A DNA stretch of 20,196 nucleotides from a virus: positions 1 through 20,196 of the IMG/VR virus record IMGVR_UViG_3300031344_000021. One strand, given 5' to 3'. The notes under the pieces are model-generated. The model was given only the letters and a program-made list of their open reading frames with translations, was not told the origin of the DNA and ran no database searches. A program made the position numbers and the translations under genes. This document shows positions 1,223 to 20,196 of this stretch, one piece after another (position 1 is the stretch's first letter; the number at the start of each line of letters is the position of its first letter).

Positions 1223-1248
1223 TTTCCCCAACTCAAGGGTAACCACAC

Positions 1249-1695: not shown

Positions 1696-1710
1696 TTTTC
1701 GAGGACGACA

Positions 1711-2655: not shown

Positions 2656-2658
2656 TCG

Positions 2659-3566: not shown

Positions 3567-3569
3567 CAG

Positions 3570-4163
3570 TTGCCGCTACTCGAAGTCGTCAACGCAATTC
3601 GCGAAGACTTCGAAGCGAGCGGCTGCCCTGCGAAGGTCTTCTACGACGAACGTCAGCTCGCGGAACACGACGCTCCCAACCGCGTTGTTTTCGTTCCGAC
3701 GAGCGACACCTACGAGGCGCCGCTAGCGATCGGCGGACCCGGCCCGCACAACCCGAGAGCGTTCTTCAGGGTCAAGCAGGGCTTCGCCGCGCACATTTGG
3801 GGCGCGGCCCCCGACCAGCCGAACCCTGCTCCGACGGCTCAACGGCTCGCTGACGAGACGTGGCTTTGGAAGCTCGTCAACCAAACAGCCTTGAGCATCT
3901 ACCGGGTAGCACCCGGTAACAACCAGCTTCTCTCCGGAGATTACCGAGCCCGCGCCAATCAGGACCGCGGGCTTCTTTATGTTCTGAAGGGCTTCATCGA
4001 AGTCCCCGTCGGTCTCGACATTGATTACCCCAAGTGGGGGATCGACGAGACCGCGCAAACCTGGACCAACGTGTCCGGAGTCAGTGCCGACGTCACCGTC
4101 GAAGAGCTGAAGCCGGATCGAACGGTCCTCGGGTCCGTTTCCTTCACCTCGTCCGGTGGATAA
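3570..4163 (+). CDS. Neck or tail terminator protein candidate
   Basis: 197 residues, mixed alpha/beta, not recognised by motif. An N-terminal helix (LLEVVNAIREDFEASG, about 3-18) leads to a beta strand pattern (VVFVPTSDTYEA, about 38-49) and a central segment HIWGAAPDQ (about 75-83). This outline resembles tail terminator proteins (lambda gpU or the DUF1834/Mu gp37 group), which cap the tail tube and sheath. The position between the gpG-like protein and the sheath is that of Mu gp37/gp38. TTG start; the TAATG overlap ties it to the sheath gene. The name rests mainly on position. Confidence 0.5.
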   Translation: MPLLEVVNAIREDFEASGCPAKVFYDERQLAEHDAPNRVVFVPTSDTYEAPLAIGGPGPHNPRAFFRVKQGFAAHIWGAAPDQPNPAPTAQRLADETWLWKLVNQTALSIYRVAPGNNQLLSGDYRARANQDRGLLYVLKGFIEVPVGLDIDYPKWGIDETAQTWTNVSGVSADVTVEELKPDRTVLGSVSFTSSGG

Positions 4164-5623: not shown

Positions 5624-5641
5624 GCCCTGAGGTAACAACAT

Positions 5642-6109
5642 ATGTCCGCACCCTATCCGTTGACCAACGGCTTTCGGCACAGTTGGGCTTCAATTGAGAT
5701 CCGCGCGAACGGCCCCGTAATCAACGGGGTCACCGAGATCAACTACTCGCCGAGCCTCGAGCCCGGCCTGGTGTTTGGAGCCGGCGCAGAGGCCGTCGGG
5801 CGCACGGTAGGTCAGAGCAAATACGAGGGGGACATGACGATCCTTCTCGAGGAATTCAACGATCTCGTCACCGCTCTCGGCCCCAATTGGATGACCGTTG
5901 AGTTCGACATCGTCGTCTCTTACGACGCGTCGGGCTCTGGTCTCTCCGTGATTCAAGACACGCTCCGAGCGTGCCGAATCACGAAATACGAGGCGAGCAA
6001 CTCGACCACGAGTCAAGACGGCACGGCACGCAAGTGCACACTGTCGATTCTTCGCATTCTCACGAACGGCGTCGCCACGGCGACAGACACCGTCGCGCCG
6101 TTCTCGTGA
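5642..6109 (+). CDS. Tail tube protein
   Basis: 155 residues, fitting tail tube proteins (Mu gpM, about 120-170 residues). The pattern VINGVTEINYSPSLEPG, then GAEAVGRTVGQSKYEGDMTI, then a helix (LLEEFNDLVTALG, about 74-86) and a C-terminal strand region (CRITKYEASN, CTLSILRI) corresponds to the beta-barrel with one helix that stacks into hexameric rings inside the sheath. GAGG lies about 8 bases before the ATG. It lies immediately after the sheath and before the assembly chaperone. Confidence 0.82.
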   Translation: MSAPYPLTNGFRHSWASIEIRANGPVINGVTEINYSPSLEPGLVFGAGAEAVGRTVGQSKYEGDMTILLEEFNDLVTALGPNWMTVEFDIVVSYDASGSGLSVIQDTLRACRITKYEASNSTTSQDGTARKCTLSILRILTNGVATATDTVAPFS

Positions 6110-6134
6110 TCTGAACAACAGGGAGACAAGGTAG

Positions 6135-6479
6135 ATGGCTAAGCTAGACGACGCCAAGCGGCAGAAGCTTGCAGAGGAACACGGCGAGATCGTCGTGATC
6201 ACTCACAAGCGTGCGGGCGACGCGGCGTTCAAGGGGCCTTCGCGGCCTCTTTGGGAACAATTTCAGAGCCGCGTCTTGAACGACAAGACGAAGGCATCCT
6301 CGACGAGCTGGCTCGTTCGCTCGTGCCTTATCTTCCCGGATGCGGCTGAGTTCGAGACGTACCTCGACCGATACCCGATGCTCGCTGAAAAGGCGGGCGC
6401 CCAACTCGTAGAGCTGGCGGGCGGCGGCGAAGAGGACGTCACCGTAAAAAAATACGAGAGCGCTGCCTCCAAGACGTGA
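6135..6479 (+). CDS. Tail assembly chaperone (zero-frame product)
   Basis: 114 residues, mostly helical, lying between the tube and tape measure genes, the fixed position of the G/GT-type tail assembly chaperones that coat the tape measure during tube polymerisation. A strong GGGAG plus AAGG leader precedes the ATG. The last codons read GTA AAA AAA TAC (6444-6455). A slip on the seven adenines would bypass the stop at 6477-6479 and add the -1 frame to 6601, giving a 155-residue product. The family name rests on position, size and frameshift geometry, since sequence motifs in this group are weak. The zero-frame form should be the major product if frameshifting is real. Confidence 0.7.
   Translation: MAKLDDAKRQKLAEEHGEIVVITHKRAGDAAFKGPSRPLWEQFQSRVLNDKTKASSTSWLVRSCLIFPDAAEFETYLDRYPMLAEKAGAQLVELAGGGEEDVTVKKYESAASKT
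6446..6452 (+). promoter_or_regulatory. Programmed -1 frameshift site (A_AAA_AAA)
   Basis: Seven adenines in the phase X_XXY_YYZ relative to the chaperone gene. The first A is the third base of GTA and the next two codons are AAA AAA. A Shine-Dalgarno-like GAAGAGGA ends at 6436, 9 bases upstream, close to the spacing of the stimulator in E. coli dnaX. Downstream, TACGAG at 6453-6458 can pair with CTCGTA at 6487-6492, and an alternative GAGC-UUCG-GCTC hairpin lies at 6478-6489. The heptamer and its phase are seen directly. Its use is inferred. Confidence 0.62.
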
Positions 6480-6601
6480 GCTTCGGCTCGTACTGCCTTC
6501 GCCAGCTCTTGCAAGGCAAGGACACCGACGAGGCCGCAGCCGCTGCGTTCGAACTGAACAAGGCAATCAAGCTCTTCATCCTCACGCACGAAAAGAAGTG
6601 A
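6452..6601 (+). CDS. -1 frame extension of the tail assembly chaperone
   Basis: Open -1 frame of 49 codons after a slip on the A run, ending TGA at 6599-6601. The peptide runs IRERCLQDVSFGSYCLRQ... to ...LTHEKK, with a helix containing DTDEAAAAAFELNKAIK. This matches the short T-domain-like tails fused to chaperones by frameshift, which contact the tape measure. It is too short to be listed as a normal open reading frame. A GTG at 6476 overlaps the zero-frame stop (GTGA), so a separate 41-residue product by coupled re-initiation is the competing explanation. Confidence 0.58.
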   Translation: MRERCLQDVSFGSYCLRQLLQGKDTDEAAAAAFELNKAIKLFILTHEKK

Positions 6602-6615
6602 CGCCTAACGACGTT

Positions 6616-6649
6616 GCCCCGCCCGCTCTCATGAGTCGGCGGGGCTTTT
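6616..6649 (+). terminator. Intrinsic terminator-like hairpin before the tape measure gene
   Basis: GCCCCGCC (6616-6623) pairs perfectly with GGCGGGGC (6638-6645). Inside it a C/C mismatch is followed by a 4-bp stem (one G-U) closed by a TCAT loop. TTTT and then CGTCTTT follow directly. The tape measure start is only 15 bases after the T tract, with no room for a new promoter. Known intrinsic terminators have this geometry, so it is probably a partial terminator or an antiterminated site. Confidence 0.72.
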
Positions 6650-6664
6650 CGTCTTTGTAGCTCG

Positions 6665-8905
6665 ATGGCCGACGCTCTCACGTTCCAACTGGCGCTCATC
6701 GACAAGATGAGCGGACCTGCGTCGATTGCCGAGAAGTCGCTCCGTGCGCTCGAGGACGTCTTGAACCGTATCAAGGCGATTGAGCTTCCGTCCCTTAAGT
6801 TCGCCCCGATCAAGCTCCCGAAGATCCCGACGGAAGGGACCAAAGAGTTCCCGTTGCAGAAGGCCGCGAAGGGCCCTTCTGACTCTTTCCTCAAAGCGAA
6901 CTCGGATGCCATCGGGCACGAGAACGCCAAGCTCTCCCCGAGCCTCATTGCACCGGTTCGGCTCGCGAACGGTGAACTCGAGCGCCTGAAGCAACAGCTC
7001 AGGGACGACAAGCTCGCGGTCACGAACCTTTCTGCGTCGATGAAGCAGTTGCAGGGGGCAACGACCGTCGACATCCACGCTTTCAAGCTCCTTCAGGCGC
7101 AGCTCCAAGAGAAGAAGAACAGCCTCGCCCAGGTACAGCAGAAGCTCATCCTCTCGGGTCACGCGGCACGCTTCGGATCCGAGGGGACGAACCGGCTCAC
7201 GACGACGCTACGTGAACTCGCCGAGAAGGCCGGCGTCGTTCCCGGCACGATGGGCGGCCTCGCGCAGAAGCTCGGAGCCGTAGCGGGCCAGGCTGACACT
7301 CTCGTTGAGACCCTCGGCCCAACGACGGCCGTCATCGCCGGCCTCGGTGCTGCGGCCCTTGCTGCCGTTGCGGCCGTCATCGCTCTTGGGGGCGCCTTCC
7401 TGTACGCCGCCATCGGGGGCGGGAAGCTCGCTCTAGAGGCCGCACAGGCCCGCCGCGACACGGAAGAGATGCTCGAGGCGATGCTCGGCAGCCAGCAGGC
7501 GGCCGTCAGCACGTACGCCGACATCGAGCAGCTCACGCGCACCGTGGCCGTCAGCCAGAGCCACGCGCAGGAGCTGGCGCAACAGCTCACCGCTAGCGGC
7601 ATCTCGAACCGCACCACGCTCGAGGCGAGCCTCAAAGCCATCGCGACGGCGGACTCCGTCGTCAAAGGATCGGGCGACAAGATCCAGTCGATCATCGAGC
7701 GTGCCGAAGCAGCTGGCACGTTCAACGTCAACGCCAAGAAGCTCACAGGGACCGGCGTCCAGATCCAGGCCCTCTACGCCCAAATCGCCAAGAACACTGG
7801 CGTAGGCGTCAAGCAAGTCGAGGCACAGCTCAAGGCCGGGAAGATCAAGGCCGAGGCCGGCATCACGGCTCTCACCCAGGTCATCGACGCGAAGTTCGGT
7901 GCCGTCGCTCTGAAGCGTGCTCGAAGCTTCGACGCCTCCCTTCAGCGAATGAAGGACAACATCGGGCGGCTCTTCGAGGACGTGAAGATCGAAGGGTTCG
8001 AAGAGTCGTTGGCGAAGATCGTCGACCTCTTCGACTCGAGCACCGTCAGCGGCGCAGCGCTCAAAGAGATCGTCACGGGCACCTTCAACGGCCTCTTTGA
8101 GACGGTGAAGCAGGTCGGCCCTTACGTTTCGATCTTCTTCCGCGGCCTCATCTTGATGGCGCTGAAGGTCTACAACGCCTTCCGGCCCGTCCTTGCGCAG
8201 TTTCACCTTCTAGGCGCTGACGGAGCATCAGACCAGAAGGCGCTCATCGATCGAGTGATCGGCCTCGCCGCTGGTGTCGGCGTTCTCGCGTCGGTTGTTG
8301 CGACCCTCGTCGGATGGGTCGGCAAGCTGAATGACTATTTCCCGATCCTGAAGCTCGGCCTTGGGCTTCTGCTCGGCCCATTCATCCTCGGGCCGTACCT
8401 GATCCTGAAGTTCATCGCCTCCCTCGTGAGCCTCGGTCTCACGATCGCAGGGCTCATCCCGGGCTGGATCACCGCTGGCGAGCAGCTCGTCGACGGCCTG
8501 ATTCAGGGCGTGGAAGCGGCCGGCACTCGTGCAATCGCCGCAGTGAAGAGCCTCGGCCTAGACGCTCTGAACGCCTTCAAGAGCGTCTTCGACATCAACT
8601 CGCCGTCGCGCGTGATGATGAAGATGGGCGGGTACCTGAGCCTTGGCCTCGCTCAGGGCATCGAAGCTCAAGCGCCCGTTGCGAACGACAACATGCGGGA
8701 GCTGTTTGCGACGCCGATGCCGGTGCCGCAACCGCGTGAACGTACTGAGCCGCAAGGGAAGTCCGGCGGCATGCAGATCACGTTCTCGCCGGGAGCGATC
8801 CAAATCACGGGTGTTGAGGGTGCGGCCCAGCTCGCAGCGATCTTCCCGCAACTCTTCGCCGACGCGTTCGAGAAGATCGCTCTGAAGCAGGCATCCGGCT
8901 ACTAA
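6665..8905 (+). CDS. Tail tape measure protein
   Basis: 746 residues, the longest tail-tube-length gene, in the standard place after the chaperone. It sets tail length; at about 1.5 angstrom per residue the tail would be near 110 nm (inference). Seen: N-terminal amphipathic helices (about 1-60), a long Lys/Gln/Glu-rich helical region (about 90-160), a hydrophobic Ala/Gly stretch (about 220-250), then two further hydrophobic segments (about 530-552 and 562-600). The C-terminus has the family pattern: Gly-rich helix, FDINSPSRVMMKMGGYLSLG and a GIEAQ helix (about 636-668). The ATG is not preceded by a clear ribosome binding site. Confidence 0.9.
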   Translation: MADALTFQLALIDKMSGPASIAEKSLRALEDVLNRIKAIELPSLKFAPIKLPKIPTEGTKEFPLQKAAKGPSDSFLKANSDAIGHENAKLSPSLIAPVRLANGELERLKQQLRDDKLAVTNLSASMKQLQGATTVDIHAFKLLQAQLQEKKNSLAQVQQKLILSGHAARFGSEGTNRLTTTLRELAEKAGVVPGTMGGLAQKLGAVAGQADTLVETLGPTTAVIAGLGAAALAAVAAVIALGGAFLYAAIGGGKLALEAAQARRDTEEMLEAMLGSQQAAVSTYADIEQLTRTVAVSQSHAQELAQQLTASGISNRTTLEASLKAIATADSVVKGSGDKIQSIIERAEAAGTFNVNAKKLTGTGVQIQALYAQIAKNTGVGVKQVEAQLKAGKIKAEAGITALTQVIDAKFGAVALKRARSFDASLQRMKDNIGRLFEDVKIEGFEESLAKIVDLFDSSTVSGAALKEIVTGTFNGLFETVKQVGPYVSIFFRGLILMALKVYNAFRPVLAQFHLLGADGASDQKALIDRVIGLAAGVGVLASVVATLVGWVGKLNDYFPILKLGLGLLLGPFILGPYLILKFIASLVSLGLTIAGLIPGWITAGEQLVDGLIQGVEAAGTRAIAAVKSLGLDALNAFKSVFDINSPSRVMMKMGGYLSLGLAQGIEAQAPVANDNMRELFATPMPVPQPRERTEPQGKSGGMQITFSPGAIQITGVEGAAQLAAIFPQLFADAFEKIALKQASGY

Positions 8906-8906
8906 C

Positions 8907-9467
8907 TTGGGCGTCCTCGTAGTCGATCCGATCACCAACCCGGACGCCTACAACAAGCTCAGTGTAGGCGGCGTAGACAACCCGGGGCTCTTCCTTCTCG
9001 AGTCCGACGGCGACAGACCATACAGATGGGACGTCAAGAACGTCGCGGGCGGGCAAGGTTCGACGATCACGTACCAAGGGTGGGACCTGGCAAAGCCCAA
9101 GGGCCGCTTCGTCTTCTGGACGAGCGAGCAGATCCAAGAGTTTTACGGCTCATACCTTCCCTTGCTGGCCTACGACGCCACGAAGAAGGCACCGAAGCCG
9201 ATCGCGGTCTTCCACCCCGTGTTGTTCGCCAACGACATCATCAGCGTCGTCGTCGACAAGATCGGGCAGCTCACGCACGAGGGTCAGCAGCGGTGGTCGG
9301 TCTCGACCGACCTCATCGAGTACCGGCCGGCTCCGAAGGTGAACACCACGACGACACCGACGAGCGCTGACCCGGGCTCGAGCCCGAACAAGCCGACGGT
9401 GAACGACGCGCTCGACCAAGCCATCGCAAACGAGCTGGCAATCGCTCAGAAGCCCCTCCCCGGCTGA
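8907..9467 (+). CDS. Tail or baseplate protein between tape measure and hub
   Basis: 186 residues, not recognised by motif. A beta-rich N-terminal half (about 10-75, with FLLESDGDRPYRWDVKNVAGG and TITYQGWDLAKPKGRFVFW) leads to a helical segment (EQIQEFYGSYLPLL, about 74-87) and a strand block around HPVLFANDIISVVVDKIG (about 102-119). The C-terminal 40 residues are Thr/Pro-rich and probably unstructured. In Mu-like phages this position belongs to the tail protein (gp43/gpN) or hub adaptor, which joins the tube end to the hub. TTG start one base after the tape measure stop. The TGATG overlap ties it to the next gene. Confidence 0.5.
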   Translation: MGVLVVDPITNPDAYNKLSVGGVDNPGLFLLESDGDRPYRWDVKNVAGGQGSTITYQGWDLAKPKGRFVFWTSEQIQEFYGSYLPLLAYDATKKAPKPIAVFHPVLFANDIISVVVDKIGQLTHEGQQRWSVSTDLIEYRPAPKVNTTTTPTSADPGSSPNKPTVNDALDQAIANELAIAQKPLPG

Positions 9468-10126
9468 TGCTCGGCTCGATCAACGGCGTCGCAATCAAGA
9501 CCGCCGAAGTGACGCTGCCCTTTCGCGGCGTGTGGACGGCCGACGTCGTCACCGAGGGCGAGATCGACGCCGATGGCCCCGTGACGATCACGATCGCGGA
9601 CCTGACTCTCGTCGGAACCGTCGATCGGATGGGCGACTTCTTGGGCTCCGGCAACCTCCGCATCGTCGGCGGCGCTGGCGGCTGGATGAAGCCGGTTCCA
9701 GCCAAATACTACCAAAACAGCTTCGGGCTGAAGCTCTCGCCAATCGTCAGCGACGCGGCTCGAGAAGCCGGCGAGACCGTCAACGTCAGCTCCGACGCAG
9801 AGCGCACCGTCGGATCGTTTTACATGCGCGAGCAGGCACCGGCAGCGCGTGTGCTGGCGCAGCTCACGTCCCTTTGGTGGGTGGACTTCGCTGGCGTGAC
9901 GCAGGTTGCCGTCACTCGGAAGGCCACGCCGATCACGGCGACGTTCGACGTGCTCCCGAAGGGCACCGACCTGCATCTTGGGCGCGTCGCACTCGCTACC
10001 GACACACCTTGCGCCTTCGTGCCGGGATGCACCTTCTCGAGCCAGACGCTCTCGAAGCAAACCATCAGCACGGTGGTTCACCGGCTCGGCGCCAACAAGT
10101 TAAGGACCGAAGTTTGGACTCAGTGA
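9467..10126 (+). CDS. Reduced baseplate hub protein (gpD/gp44-like)
   Basis: 219 residues. The C-terminal part resembles hub proteins: a helix-strand block AARVLAQLTSLWWVDFAGVTQVAV (about 125-148, a wyvd-x-dG-like pattern) and the ending FVPGCTFSSQTLSKQTISTVVHRLGANKLRTEVW, which follows the pattern of the last hub domain (PGCxx...VxxVvHrl..xkLRTev). The N-terminus has a beta-rich domain with GGAGGWMKPVPAKYYQNS. It is shorter than Mu gp44 (about 380 residues), so either one tube-like domain is missing or it sits in the neighbouring gene at 8907-9467. It precedes the spike gene, as expected. Confidence 0.6.
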   Translation: MLGSINGVAIKTAEVTLPFRGVWTADVVTEGEIDADGPVTITIADLTLVGTVDRMGDFLGSGNLRIVGGAGGWMKPVPAKYYQNSFGLKLSPIVSDAAREAGETVNVSSDAERTVGSFYMREQAPAARVLAQLTSLWWVDFAGVTQVAVTRKATPITATFDVLPKGTDLHLGRVALATDTPCAFVPGCTFSSQTLSKQTISTVVHRLGANKLRTEVWTQ

Positions 10127-10344
10127 GCGACAACGATTTCCGGATGCTGCGGGCGGACGTGTCGCTCCTCATCAACTACACGAAGGCGATCACGCAGGCC
10201 CTCGGCATCGGGCATCTAGTTCGACTCGCCGAAGAAGAGCACCGTCTCGCAACGGCCGAGCTTTCAGGGCGCTCGCTCTGGCACTCGAACGGCCACGGCG
10301 ATGAACGTCCCACCGACCCCGCTCCGGGCTTCCCTGACGAATGA
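10123..10344 (+). CDS. Small protein of unknown function between hub and spike
   Basis: 73 residues from a GTG that overlaps the hub stop (GTGA at 10123-10126), ending in the ATGA overlap with the spike gene (10341-10344). Both junctions are of the coupled type used throughout this operon. The N-terminal half is helical (RADVSLLINYTKAITQALGIG, about 11-30). The rest is charged and then Pro-rich (GHGDERPTDPAPG). A longer frame open from 9532 is only a shadow over the hub gene. No family recognised. Confidence 0.65.
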   Translation: MSDNDFRMLRADVSLLINYTKAITQALGIGHLVRLAEEEHRLATAELSGRSLWHSNGHGDERPTDPAPGFPDE

Positions 10345-10913
10345 GCGACGACGATCGCCTCATCGACGCGGTTCGAGCCGTCGTGCTGAGCCTGCTGCCA
10401 AACTACACGTTCCACGGGTTCTACCGGTACGTGGTCGACAGCTTCTCCGAGAGCGACCAGACGTTCGACGGCAAGCCCGTCGACACCTCGAAGGGCCTGC
10501 CGAACATCACGAAGGTTCCGGCACGAGCGCCCGGCATCGCGACGATCAAGCTCGGCGACGGCGAGACCGTCCTCATCGGCTTCGAGGATGCGGATCCCAC
10601 GAAGCCCTTCTTGGGTCACTTCGGCTATCCGACGGGCAACTCCCTGCCAGTAGCTAGGCAAGGTGACCTCGTCTCGACGGGCGTGACGTTCGTCGAGCTA
10701 GCCGTGCTCATGACAACGGCAGCGTCGGCGTGCACGAGCCCGCAAGTTGCCCAAGTCGGTGCGGCGTTCACTGCCCTGGCCACGGCGCTCACCAACTGCG
10801 TGGCGCTCCAATACACGACCCCGCCTCCCCCACCGTACATCCCTGGCATCGGCGGCCCTGCAACTCTCACCGGAGTGACCAGCTCCGGCTCGACGCGGAA
10901 CAAGTCCCTCTAA
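10341..10913 (+). CDS. Baseplate spike/assembly protein, gpV/gp45-like
   Basis: 190 residues. An N-terminal helix (DRLIDAVRAVVLSLL, about 5-19) precedes an OB-fold-like domain with PARAPGIATIKLGDG then VLIGFEDADPTKPFLGHF (77-94), the typical signature of phage baseplate puncturing proteins (Mu gp45, P2 gpV), followed by PVARQGDLV (103-111). The C-terminal part (about 115-190) is Ala/Thr-rich with a Pro5 run, and may form the trimeric point or its support. Length is near Mu gp45. ATGA coupling with the preceding small gene. Confidence 0.72.
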   Translation: MSDDDRLIDAVRAVVLSLLPNYTFHGFYRYVVDSFSESDQTFDGKPVDTSKGLPNITKVPARAPGIATIKLGDGETVLIGFEDADPTKPFLGHFGYPTGNSLPVARQGDLVSTGVTFVELAVLMTTAASACTSPQVAQVGAAFTALATALTNCVALQYTTPPPPPYIPGIGGPATLTGVTSSGSTRNKSL

Positions 10914-11435
10914 GTGCCCGCCGTTTACCTCGGGGTGATGACCGTCGCTGGGGCCGTCGGAGGGCTGAGTTCTGCCCTCACGCTGGCCGTTGGCGGCCTC
11001 GCCGGCCCCATTGGGGAACTCCAAGTTCAGGTTGCTGCGAGCGCGTCGATCGGCGCTCAGTTCAGCGCCGGTCTCTCGGCTCCGGACGTCACCGTCGGGG
11101 CGATGCTCTCGGCTGCGGCTGAAGTCACCGGCACGATCAGCGCTCAGCTTCCGACGGCGTTCCTTCAAGGGAGCCTCGATGCGAACGGCTCTCTTGGCAT
11201 CGCTCTGAACGCCAAGATCGCAGCGCTCGAAGCAGCGGTCGACGTCGACATGGTTGCCGCCCTCACGACGGGCGGACTCTACGCGTTCACGTACGCCGGT
11301 GATGTCGCCCAGGCATGGACGTCGCTCGCTGCTGCAACACCGCCCACGCTGACGGGCAACGTTTTCGGCGTCGTGATTTTAGCTCAGACGCCAGAGGCAC
11401 AAGCCTCACTCAAGCTCGCCTTTGGCATCGCCTAA
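10914..11435 (+). CDS. Ala/Gly/Leu-rich baseplate-cluster protein of unknown function
   Basis: 173 residues, strongly enriched in Ala, Leu, Ser, Gly and Val with no Cys and little Trp. The N-terminus is hydrophobic (residues 1-35), then Ala-rich repeats of the type AASASIGAQFSAGLSAP. The final block (GVVILAQTPEAQASLKLAFG, about 151-170) resembles the end of Ala/Leu-rich proteins found next to spikes in other Mu-like phages, where they may form a helical element of the baseplate. GTG start next to the spike stop (TAAGTG); an alternative ATG lies at 10938. Hydrophobicity could also suggest a membrane-active protein, but its place among baseplate genes argues against a holin. Confidence 0.5.
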   Translation: MPAVYLGVMTVAGAVGGLSSALTLAVGGLAGPIGELQVQVAASASIGAQFSAGLSAPDVTVGAMLSAAAEVTGTISAQLPTAFLQGSLDANGSLGIALNAKIAALEAAVDVDMVAALTTGGLYAFTYAGDVAQAWTSLAAATPPTLTGNVFGVVILAQTPEAQASLKLAFGIA

Positions 11436-11817
11436 CTACGGCAGCGATCTCGCCTGCGACACTGACCTTGATCCGATGCTCCGCCTGGTTTCCGGCGCGG
11501 AGATGATGGGCCAGGTGTGCCTTCGGCGGCTCTATTGCCGGCAAGGGCGACTCCTAAGCAACCCCAACGACAACACGCTCGACGCTCGAGACTTCGTCAA
11601 CGACGGCGTCAGTGCGAAAGACCTGCCGAAGATCGGCGGTCTCTGCCAGGGCGCCCTTCTCGGTGATCCACGGATCGCGACGGCGATGGTCTTAGCGACC
11701 TTCACGCCGTCGACGAAGACGCTTGCCTTGAACATCAAAGGGACGGGGTCGCAGGGGCCGTTTGCGCTCGTTCTCGGTGTGTCCGCCGTGACCGTCGAAA
11801 TCCTGAAGCCCAACTAA
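11422..11817 (+). CDS. gp46-like baseplate wedge protein
   Basis: 131 residues. The pattern NYGSDLACDTDLDPMLRLVSGAEMMGQVCLRRL (about 5-37) followed by a strand-rich C-terminus (AMVLATFTPSTKTLALNIKGTG, about 93-114, and FALVLGVSAVTVEIL) corresponds to gp46/gp25-like baseplate proteins: an N-terminal G.DL...D strand, helical middle and C-terminal beta strands. The TTG start at 11422 lies 14 bases inside the previous gene. No upstream ATG is available. The TAATG overlap leads directly into the gpJ-like gene, as with Mu gp46-gp47. Confidence 0.62.
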   Translation: MASPNYGSDLACDTDLDPMLRLVSGAEMMGQVCLRRLYCRQGRLLSNPNDNTLDARDFVNDGVSAKDLPKIGGLCQGALLGDPRIATAMVLATFTPSTKTLALNIKGTGSQGPFALVLGVSAVTVEILKPN

Positions 11818-13010
11818 TGGCTGTACCTCCACTCTCACAGCTCGTTGCTCCGCTCACACGCGACCAAGTGCTCGCGGCGATGCTCGAGGTGGCGGCGGAC
11901 CTGTCGCTCCCGATCGAAGCCTACGAGTCGGGTTCCGTCGGCCGTGAACTCCTCACGATCATCGCCCAAGCGATAGCGGACAGCACCGTCACCGGAGCCG
12001 CCGCAATCGGCGGTGGGCTGCTCGACTACGCGGTGGGCGCCTGGCTGACGCTGCTGTGCAACCAGGTCTACGGGATCGATCGCATCCCGGCGACGTTCGC
12101 TAGCGGCCAAATCACGCTCACGAACAACAGCGGGACGACTTACAACCCAGCCGCGGGTGACCTTCGCTTCGTCGCGCTGACAGGCCAAGCGAAGGGGCAG
12201 ACGTACACGTCGACGAGCGGTGGAACGCTTACTGCGGGCGGCGGGACCCTCACGGTCAACGTCACGGCGGACCAACCCGGAGCCGCTTCGAGCGCCTCCG
12301 CTGGTGACATTGCAGCCCTCGCCACGCCCCTTCTTGGGGTCACATGTGTAAACGCCGCCCCGCTCTTCGGCGTCGATGAAGAGAGCGACGCAGCCCTCGT
12401 CGCTCGGGCCAAAGAAAGCCTGGCGCGGGTTACCCCCAACGGTCCCGCGGATGCCTACGCGTTCTACGCGAAGAGCGCCGAGCATGCGGACGAAACGCCC
12501 GTCGGTGTCACCCGCGTCAGCGTCATTCAACAGAACGGGACGAACCAGGTGTACGTCGCCAACGAGAGCGGCGCGGTCACCGGCGACACGACAAGCCCGT
12601 CTACCAACACGACGGACCTTGGGCTCGTCAACTGGGCGATCCAGCAAAACTGCGTCCCGACGGGCATCACCGCCGTCGTGCAGTCGGCGGTGGTCAACGC
12701 GGTCACGGTCCGCGGCACCGTCTACCTCACTTACAACTCGAGCGAGGATCCTACCGACGCGGCCGAGACTGTCCTCGAGCAACTCCGGACCTATTTCGCG
12801 ACGATCCCGATCGGCGGGTTCAGCATCCCGACGGCAAACAACCGCGTCTTCCGCGAGGCACTAGCCGGACAAATTTACGAGTCACTTCCCGGTCAGGTCG
12901 TCAGCGTCACGCTCGATCTCCCGGCGAACGACGTGACGCTCAACCAGAACGAGGTCGCCGTTCTCGTGAGCGTCGCCAACGATTTCACGATCGAAAGAGC
13001 GCTCGCCTGA
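11817..13010 (+). CDS. Baseplate wedge protein J-like (Mu gp47)
   Basis: 397 residues, close to Mu gp47. The N-terminus MAVPPLSQLVAPLTRDQVLAAMLE leads to a helical region (about 20-80: SGSVGRELLTIIAQAIADS, LLDYAVGAWLTLLCNQVYG), then a beta insertion (about 95-180) with GQITLTNNSGTTYNPAAGDLRF and the gpJ family signature VDEESDAALVARAKESL (about 185-201). The C-terminal strands (VRGTVYLTYN, about 298) complete it. This forms the outer wedge that changes shape at contraction. It is flanked by gp46-like and gpI-like genes. Confidence 0.87.
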   Translation: MAVPPLSQLVAPLTRDQVLAAMLEVAADLSLPIEAYESGSVGRELLTIIAQAIADSTVTGAAAIGGGLLDYAVGAWLTLLCNQVYGIDRIPATFASGQITLTNNSGTTYNPAAGDLRFVALTGQAKGQTYTSTSGGTLTAGGGTLTVNVTADQPGAASSASAGDIAALATPLLGVTCVNAAPLFGVDEESDAALVARAKESLARVTPNGPADAYAFYAKSAEHADETPVGVTRVSVIQQNGTNQVYVANESGAVTGDTTSPSTNTTDLGLVNWAIQQNCVPTGITAVVQSAVVNAVTVRGTVYLTYNSSEDPTDAAETVLEQLRTYFATIPIGGFSIPTANNRVFREALAGQIYESLPGQVVSVTLDLPANDVTLNQNEVAVLVSVANDFTIERALA

Positions 13011-13855
13011 TGGTCGACTTCTCGGACGTTAAACCCGAGTTTCAGCCGTTTCGATCGTCCGTGAAGAAGTGGGCTCCGCCGTGGCTCACCGGGAAGTGGG
13101 GCTACCGCACGCTCTACACGGGCGGCCTGATGGTCGACGCCATCGCCGAGTGGCTTCGCATCGGCATTATCCAACGAATGCCGAAGAGCTGCGGCTCCGA
13201 GGCAGTACCGCACATCGGACGCGACCGGCGCATCACCCGCGGGCGAGCGGAGACGGAAGCTCAGTACCGAGAGCGTCTCCGGCTTGCTCTCCCGACGTGG
13301 CAGCTCGCCGGCAACGCCCCGACGTTGCTCAAGCAGCTCTACGCGTACCTCACTCCGACGGCATACCGGATCCGCTACGTCACCAGCGGTTCCGACGCGA
13401 GCAACAACCACTTCGCCGACTATTGGACGATCGAGGGCAACGAAGCTCTCTCGTACACGCGCGTCAGCCCGAACAACTGGAACTGGGACAACCAGTGGAA
13501 CCAGGTTCGCTTCTGGCTCGTCATTTACGGCCCGGTGTTTACACCGTGGCGTTGGGGTCTTCCGAGTGCGGGCTCCGGCCTCGAGTACAACCAAGGCCAG
13601 AGCTGGGGCTTCCTCGAGGACGGCTCCGTCCTTCAAGACATCCTGAGTCTCGTCAACCAGTGGAAGTGCGCTGGCTCGCACGCCACGGCTGACGGTGGGC
13701 TCATCGTCACGACGAACGACACGTTCCTCGCTCCGACAAATTCACCGAGTGACCCGCACATGCCCGACGGCACGTGGGGAGACCTCGTTTCCGGGCACAG
13801 GCCCGACGGCAACAACGGAAGAGACGATCTCGCTCTCTTCTTGGGCGGCATTTGA
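13010..13855 (+). CDS. Baseplate/tail protein, gpI/gp48-like candidate
   Basis: 281 residues, rich in Trp and Tyr. The position after gpJ matches Mu gp48 or P2 gpI, which closes the wedge and anchors fibres. The N-terminus (about 1-110) has helical blocks around AIAEWLRIGIIQRMPKS and ETEAQYRERLRLALPTWQLAGNAPTLLKQLYAYL, consistent with tail protein I. The C-terminal part is beta-rich with repeated W/N patterns (NNWNWDNQWNQVRFW, about 160-175) and FTPWRWGLPSAGSGLEY, which may form a fibre-binding surface. The ending is Asp/Gly-rich. The name is inferred from position and layout. Confidence 0.5.
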   Translation: MVDFSDVKPEFQPFRSSVKKWAPPWLTGKWGYRTLYTGGLMVDAIAEWLRIGIIQRMPKSCGSEAVPHIGRDRRITRGRAETEAQYRERLRLALPTWQLAGNAPTLLKQLYAYLTPTAYRIRYVTSGSDASNNHFADYWTIEGNEALSYTRVSPNNWNWDNQWNQVRFWLVIYGPVFTPWRWGLPSAGSGLEYNQGQSWGFLEDGSVLQDILSLVNQWKCAGSHATADGGLIVTTNDTFLAPTNSPSDPHMPDGTWGDLVSGHRPDGNNGRDDLALFLGGI

Positions 13856-14526
13856 TGGCTCACACTTACACGCCTACAGCGACGTTTCATCCGACGCTCG
13901 TCCTCCCCGACGACGGCGACAAGGCTACGGCCGCGAGCGTAAACGTCACCGCGTTTCAACCCCTCGCCGACAACGACACCGTCCTCGAAGCCAACAAGCT
14001 CGACGGCGTAACGGGTCAAACATACACGCCGACGGGAGCGATCACCGTTCGTGGCGACGGCATGGACGTCGACCCTCTAGTCTCTCACGGGGTCAACGTC
14101 GGCAGCGTACTGAGCACGTTCGCGCTCTTCGGCGTTGGCACCGGCGTCACGAGCGGACGGGCGGATCTTACGGCGCTGATCAACAGCGGCGGCTTCTCGG
14201 TTTCGAGCAACCGCGTGACCGTGCCGGCGGTCGGCACCTACGAGATCCACGTCAGCGCCGTCGTCCTCAACACCGACGGCTCGAACCCGCAGATCCTCGG
14301 CATCACCCTGAATGCTGACGCCACGCTCCTCTGCAACACTTTTGCGAGCGCTGATGCCGCCGACGGTGTCGCAGGCGGCTACGCGACGATCTCGCGTTCG
14401 ACGATGTTGCTCGTCACCTCACGGTCGACTCAACGGTTGAACGTCACCTACGCGGCGAACACGGAGGGCGTGTCCGTGGACGCCTCGGGCAGGGCGGGAA
14501 CGCTCCTCATCAAGCGGGTCGCCTAA
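13855..14526 (+). CDS. Fibre-like protein with jelly-roll-type C-terminal domain
   Basis: 223 residues from the ATG in the TGATG overlap; an extension to 13774 overlies the previous gene. The N-terminus (MAHTYTPTATFHPTLVLPDDGD, Ala-rich linker, about 1-50) resembles adaptor ends of tail fibres. The C-terminus (about 105-223) alternates strands in a pattern like C1q/TNF-type jelly rolls: VTVPAVGTYEIHVSAVVL, a DGSNPQILGITLNAD strand, a GGYATISRSTMLLV strand and a final GTLLIKRVA. Such trimeric domains occur at tips of tail fibres and bind cell-surface sugars or proteins. The fold is inferred from sequence patterns only. Confidence 0.5.
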   Translation: MAHTYTPTATFHPTLVLPDDGDKATAASVNVTAFQPLADNDTVLEANKLDGVTGQTYTPTGAITVRGDGMDVDPLVSHGVNVGSVLSTFALFGVGTGVTSGRADLTALINSGGFSVSSNRVTVPAVGTYEIHVSAVVLNTDGSNPQILGITLNADATLLCNTFASADAADGVAGGYATISRSTMLLVTSRSTQRLNVTYAANTEGVSVDASGRAGTLLIKRVA

Positions 14527-14528
14527 CC

Positions 14529-15773
14529 ATGGCCGGCGAAGACTTCACCTTCCTGGACGGTCTAATCCAGGGTCCCGCAGGTCCGGCCGGACCAGCCGGT
14601 GCCGGCGTCAACATGCCCGACGATCCCGCCGACGATGGGAAGTTCGCTGCGGCTCTCTCCGGCGACCTCGTCTTCATCGACGCCGCTACCGCGACCGGCC
14701 GGCTCAATCAGTTCAGCTCGTCGCTGAAGGGCCTCGTGCCCTCGAGCGGCGGCGGCACGGTCTACTACCTCCGAGCGGACGGAGCGTGGGCGGAACCGCC
14801 GCAGTTCGACGTCGACATTCGGAACTTCGGAGCGACGAGCGGCAGCGATTCGACGACGGCCGTCGCTGCGGCAATCTCGTCTCTTGGGTCGCAGGGCGGA
14901 AAGGTTCTCGTACCTCGAGGGATCTTCGACGTCTCGGCGGAGCTGGGTCTCACCGGAAACATTGAACTCGTGGGGGGACGCGGCTCCGTGCTCCGAAAAG
15001 TCGGTACGAACTTCAACGTCCTACGTCTCACCAACTCGGGCAACAAGGTCAGCGGGATCGAGATCAACGGCAACAACCAGGCCCAAGGCTCGCTCATCCT
15101 CTGCACGGGTTCCGACAACGAGATCACGAGCTGTTACCTGCACGACAACGGTGTGATGTCGGATGGGGCGTACACGAACCAGAGCCACGGCGTCGCCTTC
15201 GACGGCCAGAGCACAACTTGCGTTCGCAATGTCGTCGAGAAGTGCCGGATCTTCGCTTGCCACGACATCGGGATCAGCCAGCACACCGCGCCCGACAACC
15301 GTATCGCCAACAACGAGATCATCGGATCCGGCCTCGAGGGCGTGACGATCGACGTGGCCTCGCATCGAGCCCGTGTTGTGAACAACCTCATCAGCGGATG
15401 TTGCATAAACGGCGGCGTAGGTGGCGTCGGGATCGACGATAGCGACCTGTGGCTCGTCGCCTTCAACATCATCCAGGCCACGCAGAGCAGCCTCTCGGGT
15501 ATCAAGACGCAGAACAACGTAGGCCCGAGCAACTACGGGCTCATCTACGGCAACGTACTTTTGGACAACGGCGGGTGGGGCATATGGTTCTTCGCCGGAA
15601 CTAGCGGGAACGCCTCGAACCACGCCGTGACGGGCAACGTCATCCGAGGCAACACCTCGGGCTCCTTCAAGCTCGACGCGGGCTGCAACAACAACCTCGT
15701 CACCGGCAACTCGATCAACGCCGTGGCGATCAGCAATTCAGGCACCGGCAACACTCTTACGGCCAACGCATAA
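14529..15773 (+). CDS. Tailspike with collagen-like stalk and pectate-lyase-type beta-helix
   Basis: 414 residues. The N-terminus carries GPAGPAGPAGAG (15-26), a Gly-X-Y collagen-like linker. At about 92-150 the start of a pectate lyase-like (Pectate_lyase_3) domain is visible: DVDIRNFGATSGSDSTTAV, a helix and GGKVLVPRGIFDVSAELGLTGNIELVGG. From about 165 to 400 a right-handed beta-helix follows, with turns such as NKVSGIEINGNN, NEITSCYLHDNG, NRIANNEIIGSG, RVVNNLISGCC, NHAVTGNVIRGN and NLVTGNSINAV (PbH1-type). This is the architecture of tailspikes that bind and often cut surface polysaccharide. Catalytic residues cannot be assigned. ATG two bases after the previous stop. Confidence 0.75.
   Translation: MAGEDFTFLDGLIQGPAGPAGPAGAGVNMPDDPADDGKFAAALSGDLVFIDAATATGRLNQFSSSLKGLVPSSGGGTVYYLRADGAWAEPPQFDVDIRNFGATSGSDSTTAVAAAISSLGSQGGKVLVPRGIFDVSAELGLTGNIELVGGRGSVLRKVGTNFNVLRLTNSGNKVSGIEINGNNQAQGSLILCTGSDNEITSCYLHDNGVMSDGAYTNQSHGVAFDGQSTTCVRNVVEKCRIFACHDIGISQHTAPDNRIANNEIIGSGLEGVTIDVASHRARVVNNLISGCCINGGVGGVGIDDSDLWLVAFNIIQATQSSLSGIKTQNNVGPSNYGLIYGNVLLDNGGWGIWFFAGTSGNASNHAVTGNVIRGNTSGSFKLDAGCNNNLVTGNSINAVAISNSGTGNTLTANA
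14571..14606 (+). repeat. Collagen-like Gly-X-Y stretch in the tailspike
   Basis: Codes for residues 15-26 of the tailspike as four Gly-Pro-Ala type triplets (the last imperfect). A short trimerising linker of this kind is common in phage fibres. It marks the boundary between the baseplate-attaching end and the receptor-binding beta-helix. Confidence 0.75.
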
Positions 15774-15784
15774 GGACAGAAGAA

Positions 15785-16273
15785 ATGAGTGAAATGGGAT
15801 TTGCGGACGACCTCCGCGCTCAAGGCGTCTTCACGATCGAGGTCATCCGGGACGGAAAGAACGGACCCGAGGTGCTCCAGCGGCGTGTCGCGCCGAACCT
15901 CGTGGTGAACAGCGGCAAACGTCAGCTCTGGCGCCAAGCGACCGGGCTCAACTCGAACGACTTCGATCAGATGCGGATCGGCACCTCGTCGGGCGCAACC
16001 AACTCCGGTCAGACGAACGTGCTCTCGCCGCTCACCGGCACGATCAACACCGTGGATTCGAAGACGCTGCTTTCAGGTACGCGTACTTTCCAATGGGTGA
16101 TCTCGTACCCGAGCGGTGCAAGCAGCAAGAGCGCCGCTGGCATCAAAGAGGTCTGCCTGTTGAACCAGAACACCTCGCCGGGCGGATCAGCCATGAGCCG
16201 TTCGACGTTTACGAGCGTGACGAAGACTCGCGCGGACAAATTGAAAATTTCCTATGTTTGCAGGGTTACGTAA
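15785..16273 (+). CDS. Small tail-cluster protein of unknown function
   Basis: 162 residues. The N-terminus is MSEMGFADDLRAQGVFTIEVIRDGK, then a beta-rich body (NSGKRQLWRQATGL at 43-56, TLLSGTRTFQWVISYPSGAS near the middle) and a Ser/Thr-rich strand ending SYVCRVT. Similar short proteins sit in tail-fibre clusters of Caudoviricetes and may be virion-associated beta-sandwich pieces. No conserved catalytic motif is seen. An AGAAG element precedes the ATG. The last 40 bases are noticeably AT-rich compared with the neighbours. Confidence 0.5.
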   Translation: MSEMGFADDLRAQGVFTIEVIRDGKNGPEVLQRRVAPNLVVNSGKRQLWRQATGLNSNDFDQMRIGTSSGATNSGQTNVLSPLTGTINTVDSKTLLSGTRTFQWVISYPSGASSKSAAGIKEVCLLNQNTSPGGSAMSRSTFTSVTKTRADKLKISYVCRVT

Positions 16274-16292
16274 CGCGTCGCGCTGACTTCGC

Positions 16293-19157
16293 ATGGCATT
16301 TCGCAGCGTCGCAGTCACAACAGTCGACGGTAACGTAACGGTCAACGCTCCGGCGGGCCTGACCGTTGGCGATGTGCTGCTCCTCGCGTGCTCGAACGAT
16401 ACGGGCACGGGCTTCGGCACGACTCCGACCGGGCTGACGCTGCTCTCAGGGCCGACCACGTTTGGCATCGACGGCCAGACGATCGCGCTCTACGGGTGCA
16501 TTTGGGACGGCACGCAGTCGCTGTCCTTCAGCCCGGGGACGTCGGCCGACAACATCTATGTAGCCACGGCGTGGAGCGGGCGCGTCACGTCCTCGCTCGC
16601 GTCGTCGGTTGCCGTCACAACCACGACGCCGGCATCGACATCCACGTCGATCGCTCTCACGGGTGCGACGTCAGCAGCGGGCGATGATATCGCCGCGTTC
16701 AGCATGCCCGATCCGGCGAGCCACACCGGGCTCACGCAAACGCCGCCCGCTGGCTATACCGAGCCGTCCGGCGCAGACGTTAACGTTGGTTTCTCGGCCG
16801 TCGACTTCGCCTACAAGGAGAACGTCTCGTCGGGGTCGACGGGCACTCTCACGTTCACGGCCAGTGCGTCCGTCGAGTATTCGGGTTGGGTAGTCCGGCT
16901 CGCGATCGGCACCGGACCAAACATCACGAGCCAGCCGAGTTCGACGCAGGTTGCGGTGGGGTCGACGGCGACCTACTCGGTCACGGCGAGCGCGTCCGGC
17001 GGCGGGACCCTCTCGTACCAATGGCAACTGAACGGTACCAACGTCAGCACGGGCAGCGGCGGCACCACGTCGAGTTACACGACGGGGGCGCTCGGGCTCT
17101 CTGACAGCGGCGGATCCTACACGTGCATCGTCACCGAGACTGGCGGATCGAATGCCGGCTCGGCCACGACGACGGCCGCGATCGGGTACGTCGGAATCGT
17201 TAGAGTTGCGGTCAGCACGACGGTCTACACGGCGACGGGCACGCCAACGACGATCGCCCCCGGATGGCCGACGACTGCGGGGATTTCCAGCTCTGTCGGC
17301 AAGGTTCTCCTCATCATCGGCATGAAGCCCGCGACGTCGGGCGCTGGTACCGTCACAACGCCAAGCTCCCCGTGGTCGCTGCTCGGCAACATCCAAGGCG
17401 CTGGCGGTTATACGGCCGGCGGTGCGAGCGCTGCTGACACGGGCAACTGTGATCTCTACGTCTACTCGGCGGACGATCCAGGGACCACGAGCGGTAGCCT
17501 CTCGGTCACCGTCAACGTAGGAGCTACCAACGGCGTGGCGTGGGCTACGATGCTCCGCTACTCGGCACCGAGCGGATCGACGTTCTCCCTCGCGATGGCC
17601 ACCGGGTCAGACACGAGCGCGGGCAACGTCTCGATCACCTTCGGCTCGGATCCCGGGGTCACGGCAAATGACTACGTCGTCGGTGCGATGTGTATCCCGA
17701 CGGACGTCACGACGCCCAGCCAGTTCAGCGCTGAGGCATTTTCGCAGACGGGCGTGACGTTCGGCACGGTGTTCGAGATCGGTGAGCCCGACAGCTCGAA
17801 CAACAACGACATTGGCGGTTTCATCGTCGACGTACCCATCTCGAGCGGTACCTCGAGCGCTGCACCGACGATGACCGCCACGGCGGGCGGCACCACCACG
17901 AACGTCCGTGGCCCCGGCGTTTTCGTGCGGCTCCGAGCCACTACCGGCGGCTCGACGTTCACACCAACGATCTCGGGCGACACGGCGGCTGTCACGGACA
18001 GCGAGACGACGTCGCTCGAGTACCTGCGTACTCCCACCGGTGACACGGCGAGCGTCACGGACGGCGCCTCGGTCGAGGTCACCAAGGGCGCTAACGACAC
18101 CGCCGCGGTCTCGGACGCGACATCGACGGCTCTCGAGTACGGCCGCCTACCGAGCGACACAGCCGCTGTTAGCGACGGCGCAGCTCTCGCGCTCGAGTAC
18201 CTTCGTGTCCTCTCGGACACCGCAGCGGTAACGGACGCCCTCGCCGAAGAAGCTCAGTATCTTCGTTCGGCCTCCGACACCGCGAGCCTCACGGACTCGA
18301 TCACCGCGGGGCTGTCGCGTGAGACCGACGTCTCCGTCTCGGACAGCGCGTCCGTAACCGACTCGCTCGCCGAAGAGACTCAGTACCTTCGCTCGGGTTC
18401 CGACACGCTCGCCGCTTCGGACACGTCGACCACCTCGACGGAGTTCGGACGTGCGGCATCGGACACCGTTGCGGCCTCGGACGCCGTCGCGGTTGGCTTC
18501 GAGCTTGGACGTTCGGTCTCCGACTCCTCGACGCTCACGGACGCAGCGGCTACGGCCTCGGCCTACGAGCGGCTGCCGTCGGATTCCGTTGTCGTAGCCG
18601 AAACGCTCGCTACCGAGACGAGCTACGTCCGACCGGTCTCGGACACCGTCGCGTCGACGGACGCTGTAGACGCCCAGCTCGTCACGCCGTCGACGCTGAA
18701 CGTCTCCGTCTCGGACTCCCTGGCGGTCACGGATTCCGAGACGAGCGAGACCGCCTACGACCGTTCGGCTTCGGACGCAGCGAGCGTCACGGACCAGACC
18801 GCGGTCAGCAGCGAAGCTTCAAGAGTCTCGTCCGATTCGGTGGCGGTAGGCGACGCGATAAGCCGTGAGACCTCGGTCACGCGCAGCTCGTCGGACGCCG
18901 CGACGGCTAGCGACGTCCTTCTCACGTGGGCCGACTACGCACGCCTCGCAGGCGACGTGGCGGACGTTGTTGACGCCGTCGAGGCGTTCATCGTCGCGCC
19001 GTTCATCAACGTGAACGTCACTGACGTCGTTGCGACGACGGACGCCACGAGGGTCATGCAAGCCGTTCCCGACTTCGCGACAGACCCGCGGCGAACCGCC
19101 GTGACGAGCTTCGAGAGCCGGACCGCGACCACCAACTACGAGAACCGGACGTTCTGA
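16293..19157 (+). CDS. Large tail-associated adhesin: beta-sandwich, Ig-like and repeat domains
   Basis: 954 residues, no signal peptide. Four parts are visible. Residues 1-208 form a beta-rich domain (GDVLLLACSND, YVATAWSGRV, GWVVRLAIGTG). Residues about 210-297 form an Ig-like domain (PSSTQVAVGSTATYSV, Trp244 in YQWQLNG, DSGGSYTCIV with Cys278). Residues about 299-552 form a second domain whose blocks echo the first (KVLLIIGMKPATSG, WATMLRYSAP, GVFVRLRATTG). Residues 563-925 are about eighteen 19-24 residue repeats starting D[TS]xxV[TS]D. The end is FESRTATTNYENRTF. Ig-like domains on phage particles are known to hold cell-surface sugars or mucus. The protein is probably a fibre or surface decoration; the exact role is unknown. 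Confidence 0.65.
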   Translation: MAFRSVAVTTVDGNVTVNAPAGLTVGDVLLLACSNDTGTGFGTTPTGLTLLSGPTTFGIDGQTIALYGCIWDGTQSLSFSPGTSADNIYVATAWSGRVTSSLASSVAVTTTTPASTSTSIALTGATSAAGDDIAAFSMPDPASHTGLTQTPPAGYTEPSGADVNVGFSAVDFAYKENVSSGSTGTLTFTASASVEYSGWVVRLAIGTGPNITSQPSSTQVAVGSTATYSVTASASGGGTLSYQWQLNGTNVSTGSGGTTSSYTTGALGLSDSGGSYTCIVTETGGSNAGSATTTAAIGYVGIVRVAVSTTVYTATGTPTTIAPGWPTTAGISSSVGKVLLIIGMKPATSGAGTVTTPSSPWSLLGNIQGAGGYTAGGASAADTGNCDLYVYSADDPGTTSGSLSVTVNVGATNGVAWATMLRYSAPSGSTFSLAMATGSDTSAGNVSITFGSDPGVTANDYVVGAMCIPTDVTTPSQFSAEAFSQTGVTFGTVFEIGEPDSSNNNDIGGFIVDVPISSGTSSAAPTMTATAGGTTTNVRGPGVFVRLRATTGGSTFTPTISGDTAAVTDSETTSLEYLRTPTGDTASVTDGASVEVTKGANDTAAVSDATSTALEYGRLPSDTAAVSDGAALALEYLRVLSDTAAVTDALAEEAQYLRSASDTASLTDSITAGLSRETDVSVSDSASVTDSLAEETQYLRSGSDTLAASDTSTTSTEFGRAASDTVAASDAVAVGFELGRSVSDSSTLTDAAATASAYERLPSDSVVVAETLATETSYVRPVSDTVASTDAVDAQLVTPSTLNVSVSDSLAVTDSETSETAYDRSASDAASVTDQTAVSSEASRVSSDSVAVGDAISRETSVTRSSSDAATASDVLLTWADYARLAGDVADVVDAVEAFIVAPFINVNVTDVVATTDATRVMQAVPDFATDPRRTAVTSFESRTATTNYENRTF
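17979..19070 (+). repeat. About 18 tandem repeats of a 19-24 residue unit (SDTAxVTDxx...)
   Basis: In-frame tandem units in the adhesin (residues 563-925), each opening with Asp-Thr/Ser-x-x-Val-Thr/Ser-Asp and usually ending with (Q/E)Y(L/G)R-xxS. Clear copies include DTAAVTDALAEEAQYLRSAS, DSASVTDSLAEETQYLRSGS and DTAAVSDGAALALEYLRVLS. Units diverge towards the C-terminus (DVADVVDAVEAF, DVVATTDATRV). At DNA level TCGGACAC and related words recur, but spacing follows codons, so it is a protein repeat. Confidence 0.85.
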
Positions 19158-19466
19158 ATGAGCGATCTCACCGAAGTCCAAGCCCAGTTCCTCAAGGACC
19201 CGGCGGCGGTACTGCCGTACTACAGGGATTGGTCCGACTGGCTCGACGCGGGCGAGAGCATCGTGTCCTCGAGCTGGACGGTTACGCCTGCGAACGACGT
19301 CACGATTGTCCTCGAACAAATGATCGGCACCACGAAGACCGCGGTGTGGCTCTCAGGCGGCGTGGCTGGCGTGCCCTACACCGTGACGAACGAGGTCACG
19401 ACGGATAGCTCACCGATCGCGAAGGTCGACGAGCGGAGTTTCACTCTAGTCTGTAGATCCCGGTAG
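19158..19466 (+). CDS. Possible phage fibre-tail adaptor protein
   Basis: 102 residues. The pattern FLKDPAAVLPYYRDWSDWLDAGESIVSSSWTVTP, then VWLSGGVAGVPYTVTNEVTT and DERSFTLVCRSR is a recognisable small phage protein family (LkDP..vl.y..DWsdwL.. / ..vWLSGG..G..Ytvtn.i.. / ..DeRSftlrvr.R), often annotated as fibre-tail adaptor. It is an Ig-like beta-sandwich by strand pattern. ATG directly after the adhesin stop. Its last 21 bases overlap the 3' end of the convergent TIR gene. The functional name is uncertain, the family match fairly firm. Confidence 0.6.
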   Translation: MSDLTEVQAQFLKDPAAVLPYYRDWSDWLDAGESIVSSSWTVTPANDVTIVLEQMIGTTKTAVWLSGGVAGVPYTVTNEVTTDSSPIAKVDERSFTLVCRSR

Positions 19467-20196
19467 CCTGGTGGCGGCACCGCTACCCCTTCGCTCGTCC
19501 GCAAAGCCGACTTTACCTTGGCGAACGTCAAATAGGGGGTATCTGGTGGCCAATTCCCAAATCTCTTCACCAGTTACATCGTATTTGGTGTTCTTTCGAA
19601 CGCGCTCTGCCAGCTCTTCAAATGTGCGACTCCCCGAATGGATCAGGTCGACCTCAATTAGCTCAACGATCTCCTGTTCTCGGCGTTTTCGGCTCGTTTC
19701 ATGATCTCGAACGACTCTCCGCGCTCTGACCTCCGACCGCGTTCTCAGATAGTCATGTAGAGCCATATCCATATCGAGCGCTGAAATGGTTGGAGCGGCC
19801 GCGAGTTGGTCAAGGATCGCTCGCGTGTTCGTCAATAGTTCCTTAAGCACCTCGTTGTCCCCCCTCTGCGCCGCCCTCGGAGCTTGCAGAAGCGCTTCCG
19901 CCGCCTTCAGTTCAACCTCAAGCTCCGGCCAGCATTTCTCGAACAAGTCTTCAACGATCGCTCCTGAGCGCCCCAGGTCCGCCATGGCCGTATTAATGCT
20001 TCTTATTAGAGCGAGCGTGCCCTCCTTGCTACACGCTCGCCCTTGAAGCGGGTTCAACGGCAGCGTTGGAAAGTCAGCGGGCGTGATGTCGAGCATCCAA
20101 GGCGCCGTAGGCTTGTTCAGTCCGTCACGGATCACACCCGCCTCGTAGTTGAGCCACGGCTTCTCGACGTTCTCTCGCGTCACGCAGATCACGCAG
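19446..20196 (-). CDS. TIR-domain protein, 5' end outside window (partial)
   Basis: Transcribed leftwards and open at the right window edge; 248 residues are visible from a GTG at 20192 (internal, not a convincing start). Residues 2-70 fit the second half of a bacterial TIR domain: ICVTRENVEKPWLNYEAGVI, then PWMLDITPADFPTLPLNPLQ and an EGTLALIRSIN helix. Glu17, in the W-L-N-Y-E-A-G motif, is at the place of the catalytic glutamate of NAD-cleaving TIRs. Residues about 80-185 are helical. Residues about 187-235 (TFEELAERVRK, GEEIWELATRYPLFDVRQGKVGF) resemble a winged helix. Base composition is lower in GC (28 of 60 at 19561-19620, against 37 of 60 at 18241-18300). Such proteins act in anti-phage defence by NAD depletion or signalling. 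Confidence 0.72.
   Translation of the reverse strand, partial: CVICVTRENVEKPWLNYEAGVIRDGLNKPTAPWMLDITPADFPTLPLNPLQGRACSKEGTLALIRSINTAMADLGRSGAIVEDLFEKCWPELEVELKAAEALLQAPRAAQRGDNEVLKELLTNTRAILDQLAAAPTISALDMDMALHDYLRTRSEVRARRVVRDHETSRKRREQEIVELIEVDLIHSGSRTFEELAERVRKNTKYDVTGEEIWELATRYPLFDVRQGKVGFADERRGSGAATRLPGSTD
19462..19487. terminator. Hairpin at the convergent junction, weak terminator candidate
   Basis: GGTAGC (19462-19467) pairs with GCTACC (19482-19487). Inside, after a two-base CT bulge, GGTG pairs with CACC around a GCGG loop. It covers the stop of the last tail gene and sits between two converging genes, where a bidirectional terminator would be useful. No T tract follows on either strand, so function is doubtful. 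Confidence 0.3.

Follow-up and report, generated by a model that had tools for sequence, protein, structure and literature searches.

The locus raises the question of what a gene for a TIR-type protein is doing beside the tail genes of a phage, whether it belongs to the phage or to the host, and how its product would act. TIR proteins are NAD-cutting immune enzymes, and those of the present kind are often carried by phages and probably protect the host from rival phages. The window, that is, the whole stretch of DNA that was analysed, makes up a complete IMG/VR record (20,196 bases). Almost its whole length is taken up by a single head and contractile-tail module on the plus strand (positions 2-19157, from profile and sequence matches), which encodes a head protease, major capsid protein, adaptor, tail sheath, tape measure, baseplate J and fibres, and after which comes the last tail gene, for a Gp77-like fibre-tail adaptor (19158-19466, plus strand; PF23148, E=2.4e-24). 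The TIR reading frame occupies 19446-20195 on the minus strand and, in the list of open reading frames, is open at the contig end. Because it runs off the contig, only the C-terminal 249 residues of the protein are visible; alignment with relatives places about 58 N-terminal residues, comprising the MKVFISWSG start and the next elements, beyond the contig. The gene is convergent with the tail genes, all of which lie on the opposite strand, and its stop overlaps the last of them by 21 bp, the two stops being convergent. At 57.0%, its GC content lies below that of all 374 same-size stretches, whose mean is 63.5% (SD 2.2); its GC3 is 0.63, against 0.72-0.90 across 22 phage genes. Both the opposite orientation and a GC content below that of the tail genes had been pointed out in the first-pass annotation, and both hold, the TIR gene having the lowest GC content of the contig.

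The same annotation had assigned the protein to the TIR proteins, which is supported here by family profiles and by the fold modelled for a full-length relative. The visible fragment is matched by the PADLOC TIR-TM profile (1e-18, profile positions 60-233) and by phrog_13899 (2.8e-22), and phmmer finds relatives with E-values down to 2e-22. At the sequence level, similarity to TIR proteins far above chance is confirmed, and these matches assign the protein to the AC1-type TIR family (PADLOC TIR-TM protein, phrog_13899). Neither Pfam nor NCBIfam gave a match to the fragment; for Pfam, the probable reason is that the fragment does not include the N-terminal half of the TIR domain. Relatives of full length do exceed the PF13676 (TIR_2) threshold. 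No relatives came up when the reading frame was used as a single-protein query, but alignment scans recovered them. Modelled with AlphaFold2, the full-length relative L086 adopts the TIR topology with high confidence, and a Foldseek search with this model retrieves SPARTA TIRs (7.5e-7), plant TIRs and SpbK (9phb, TMt 0.72); the complete window protein would probably share this fold. With the AlphaFold2 model of the window fragment (mean pLDDT 82), Foldseek retrieved nothing significant from PDB or BFVD; the fragment comprises no more of the TIR domain than its C-terminal half, for which such an outcome may be expected. Resemblances of the fragment to winged-helix structures (Fur domain, I73R; Foldseek E about 4) were not significant and were rejected as evidence, as were the matches of the C-terminus alone to PDB sequences, which were of chance level (for example, troponin C).

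The WLNYEAG motif noticed in the first-pass annotation spans residues 14-20 (about 20136-20156); with the preceding proline, PWLNYEAG (20136-20159, minus strand) forms a WxxxE motif whose Trp is Trp14 and whose Glu, the candidate catalytic residue, is Glu18. In the family profile, built from 84 relatives, the corresponding PW(I/L)xFEAG motif aligns with the WxxxE motif of AbTIR, and WLNYE of the window falls on AbTIR W204 and E208. Both of these residues are required for the NADase activity of AbTIR, and the Trp also for the production of 2'cADPR (PMC11374754). The likeness to AbTIR and other bacterial TIR NADases lies in this active-site motif, as aligned by profile; the similarity is otherwise distant (profile E about 0.002) and, unlike the window gene, those enzymes are not phage cargo. 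Trp14 and Glu18 are conserved in 85 of 85 aligned sequences, an invariance that is partly built in because the search pattern contained both residues. We therefore rechecked it on homologues found independently of the motif, by protein or profile search alone, and all 18 of these, two of them already within the set of 85, have both residues. The alignment with E208 and this recheck bear out the earlier proposal of a candidate catalytic glutamate in the WxxxE motif. The family residues retained in the fragment are Asn9, Pro13, Trp14, Glu18, Gly20 and Pro46.

The family is wide, with 71 viral and at least 80 bacterial or archaeal loci from many phyla (obtained in pattern scans, in which 80 of 263 bacterial and archaeal genome matches were kept), and the TIR-TM profile matches all 84 full-length members scanned. 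Mean pairwise identity is 49% in the TIR part and 17% in the C-terminus. For the C-terminal 114 residues of the window protein no relative was detectable among 157 proteins. The AlphaFold2 model of the fragment predicts a long helix without homologue at residues 139-186 (19638-19781, minus strand), followed by two short predicted helices at residues 192-218 (19542-19622, minus strand), which may serve as the sensor. Judged by eye, the family members at L026 (10424-10612) and L029 (10316-10582) have a helix-turn-helix-like end; the former has weak sequence matches to HTH proteins, and a search for an HTH sequence match to the latter found none. In the TIR tree, the window protein pairs with that of the viral contig L011 (99/86) and has a long branch (1.56). 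Family members are mostly solitary genes: a same-strand neighbour lies within 60 bp at 42 of 147 loci, as determined with a rough gene caller, and an upstream neighbour with two or more predicted membrane segments is found at 9 of 142. Downstream neighbours in viral contigs vary (integrase, antiterminator Q, HNH endonuclease, terminase, portal), tail or fibre genes being found there in single viral contigs only. Two plasmids carry members in other settings: in Gloeothece (L006, 1824-4261) the member, which is matched by the PADLOC CRISPR-T model (1e-55), lies just upstream of cas10, and in Deinococcus radiophilus (L007, 1818-2267) a member of 149 aa directly follows a DNA methyltransferase gene near an IS6 transposase.

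The capsid protein of the window is 41% identical to its counterpart in Myxococcus phage Mx4 and the tail sheath 35% identical to that of Thermus phage Riverbug; judged from such matches, the phage is contractile-tailed. Its 954-residue tail protein at 16293-19157 combines an Ig-like domain with a long array of degenerate SDTxAVTDxxxxxxEYxR repeats. A single-protein scan with the tail protein at 13010-13855 found no relatives, and the baseplate alignment (five sequences) was too divergent to serve as a query. In the closest contig (L164, 52 kb), the tail module is about 32-67% identical to that of the window and likewise ends with a Gp77-like gene, which is followed by a glycosyltransferase gene on the same strand. 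The slot of the TIR gene is held in the closest related phage contig (L294, 322-2754) by a glycosyltransferase in two parts (PF00535 and PF00534) that also has TPR repeats. In Mx4, the tail module is followed by a long minus-strand block. Of 26 related contigs, 16 have a tyrosine integrase match, which in 14, the closest contig among them, lies above the family cut-off. The TIR profile had no match in 50 related contigs, many of which are fragments; as a positive control, it detected four known carriers. The integrase matches, together with the absence of the TIR gene from relatives, suggest that the lineage is temperate and that the TIR gene has been added to it sporadically, and the window's own phage would then probably integrate as well. 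A Mu-like transposing phage was also considered and was dropped, with tyrosine integrase present as described and PF09299 matched by none of the 26 relatives (nor by the control genomes).

The first-pass annotation had offered two alternatives for the origin of the gene, prophage cargo or a host defence island next to the insertion site. In our analysis the former is favoured, and the gene is most likely accessory phage cargo. It has the traits of cargo in its opposite strand, its low GC content and its absence from the 50 related contigs, incomplete as many of these are, and the contig ends before the right bound of the phage. Many homologues are phage-borne, one of them within a tested defence locus (AC1), and related phages have other genes after the tail module or are without a TIR gene. 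Were it instead a chromosomal defence gene of the host, with the end of the contig being host DNA beside a prophage insertion site, its lower GC content than that of the phage genes would be accounted for; family members are also frequent in genome contigs beyond those of known phages, and host flanks are possible in IMG/VR contigs. We nevertheless regard this as improbable, since the overlap of the stop codons leaves no room for an attachment site, which would otherwise fall within a complete tail gene, and since neither lysis genes, none of which precede the TIR gene within the window, nor the right end of the phage has been reached. Moreover, in the closest relative the Gp77-like gene is followed by another gene, and Mx4 has its minus-strand block at the corresponding position.

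As to how the protein would act, we lean, with somewhat better than even confidence, towards its being the C-terminal part of an AC1-family TIR effector that cleaves NAD+ and that serves a probably temperate contractile-tailed phage as accessory cargo for solo abortive defence. The direct basis for this explanation is homology, the WxxxE motif, the TIR fold of a full-length relative and sporadic presence. The gene would be transcribed alone during lysogeny, and the protein would become active only once a product of another infecting phage is sensed by its C-terminal part, which diverges fast. The TIR domains would then cluster and Glu18, as the putative NADase residue, would cleave NAD+, so that the infection is aborted and neighbouring lysogens are spared. 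We think that the C-terminus senses the phage product and the TIR domain aborts the infection by NAD+ loss by analogy with SpbK of Bacillus subtilis ICEBs1, in which binding of a phage portal protein to the non-TIR domain makes the TIR domains cluster and sets off the loss of NAD+ (PMC11984713, PMC12847820). Like the window protein, SpbK is a single protein of similar size with a TIR and a second domain, and it was matched in fold (9phb) by the L086 model. The domain order is reversed, SpbK having its sensor N-terminally and its TIR domain C-terminally.

The family also includes the TIR gene of the P2-like phage AC1 (locus L002), beside which are two membrane-protein genes. By Rousset et al. 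(2022, PMC9122126), the AC1 lysogen, as well as the three cloned genes, is reported to protect E. coli C from lambda and LF82_P8, and the three-gene clone also to resist P2. The AC1 system is like the window in TIR family, in being phage-borne and in the WxxxE motif. Identity is about 30% over the TIR part and none is detectable in the C-terminus. The AC1 gene lies with its membrane-protein genes in the P2 defence hotspot, whereas the window gene follows a tail module and has its upstream flank off the contig.

Since any partner genes would lie upstream, off the contig, a signal-making, Thoeris-like role is possible, and this is the strongest rival to direct NAD+ depletion. The TIR enzyme would turn NAD+ into a cyclic or modified ADP-ribose, activating a membrane or Macro-domain, ThsA-like partner encoded just upstream. 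We consider this rather less probable, at about one chance in four by our reckoning. The two membrane-protein genes adjoining the AC1 TIR gene argue for it, a nucleotide messenger being proposed by the AC1 authors (PMC9122126), as does the presence in the window protein of the Trp that AbTIR needs for 2'cADPR production. Thoeris (ThsA/ThsB) is alike in having a TIR enzyme that acts on NAD+, and two family members adjoin its homologues. In the viral contig L018 (8953-10633), a TM-Macro ThsA homologue (PDLC00413, 5e-53) precedes the member at a distance of 31 bp, and this Thoeris-like pair links the TIR-TM family to Thoeris; in Massilia sp. Root418 (L139, 7231-8831) a ThsB-type TIR gene (PDLC00421, 1e-61) is directly upstream of the TIR-TM family gene, making a tandem of two TIR genes. 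Direct killing may therefore not hold for all members. The window protein itself had no ThsB model among its PADLOC matches up to E=10 and is not a ThsB by profile, and no ThsA gene is visible within the contig, whose end cuts off the upstream flank. The scarcity across family loci both of close same-strand neighbours and of upstream membrane-protein neighbours speaks against the signal-making role. That the gene has no function, being a TIR remnant (decayed or non-enzymatic) or the product of an assembly join, is far less probable still; the long tree branch, the unique C-terminus and the visibility of only part of the gene would fit, but all 249 visible codons are open and the family residues listed above are retained. 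A further and fairly improbable proposal is that the family provides one-gene phage-borne immunity, a constant TIR domain being joined to exchangeable C-terminal sensor modules, here a helical end without known relative.

Phage-borne defence with the AC1-type TIR family has already been published, and the window gene is a further member of that family. If the abortive reading that we favour is true, the range of the AC1-type TIR family reaches contractile-tailed phages of an uncharacterised lineage that is related to Mx4 and Riverbug, and the position behind the tail module may hold interchangeable cargo, a TIR gene here and a glycosyltransferase in the closest relative. The family, with a constant TIR part, varied C-termini and mostly solitary genes, lends itself to the study of what triggers phage-borne TIR enzymes.
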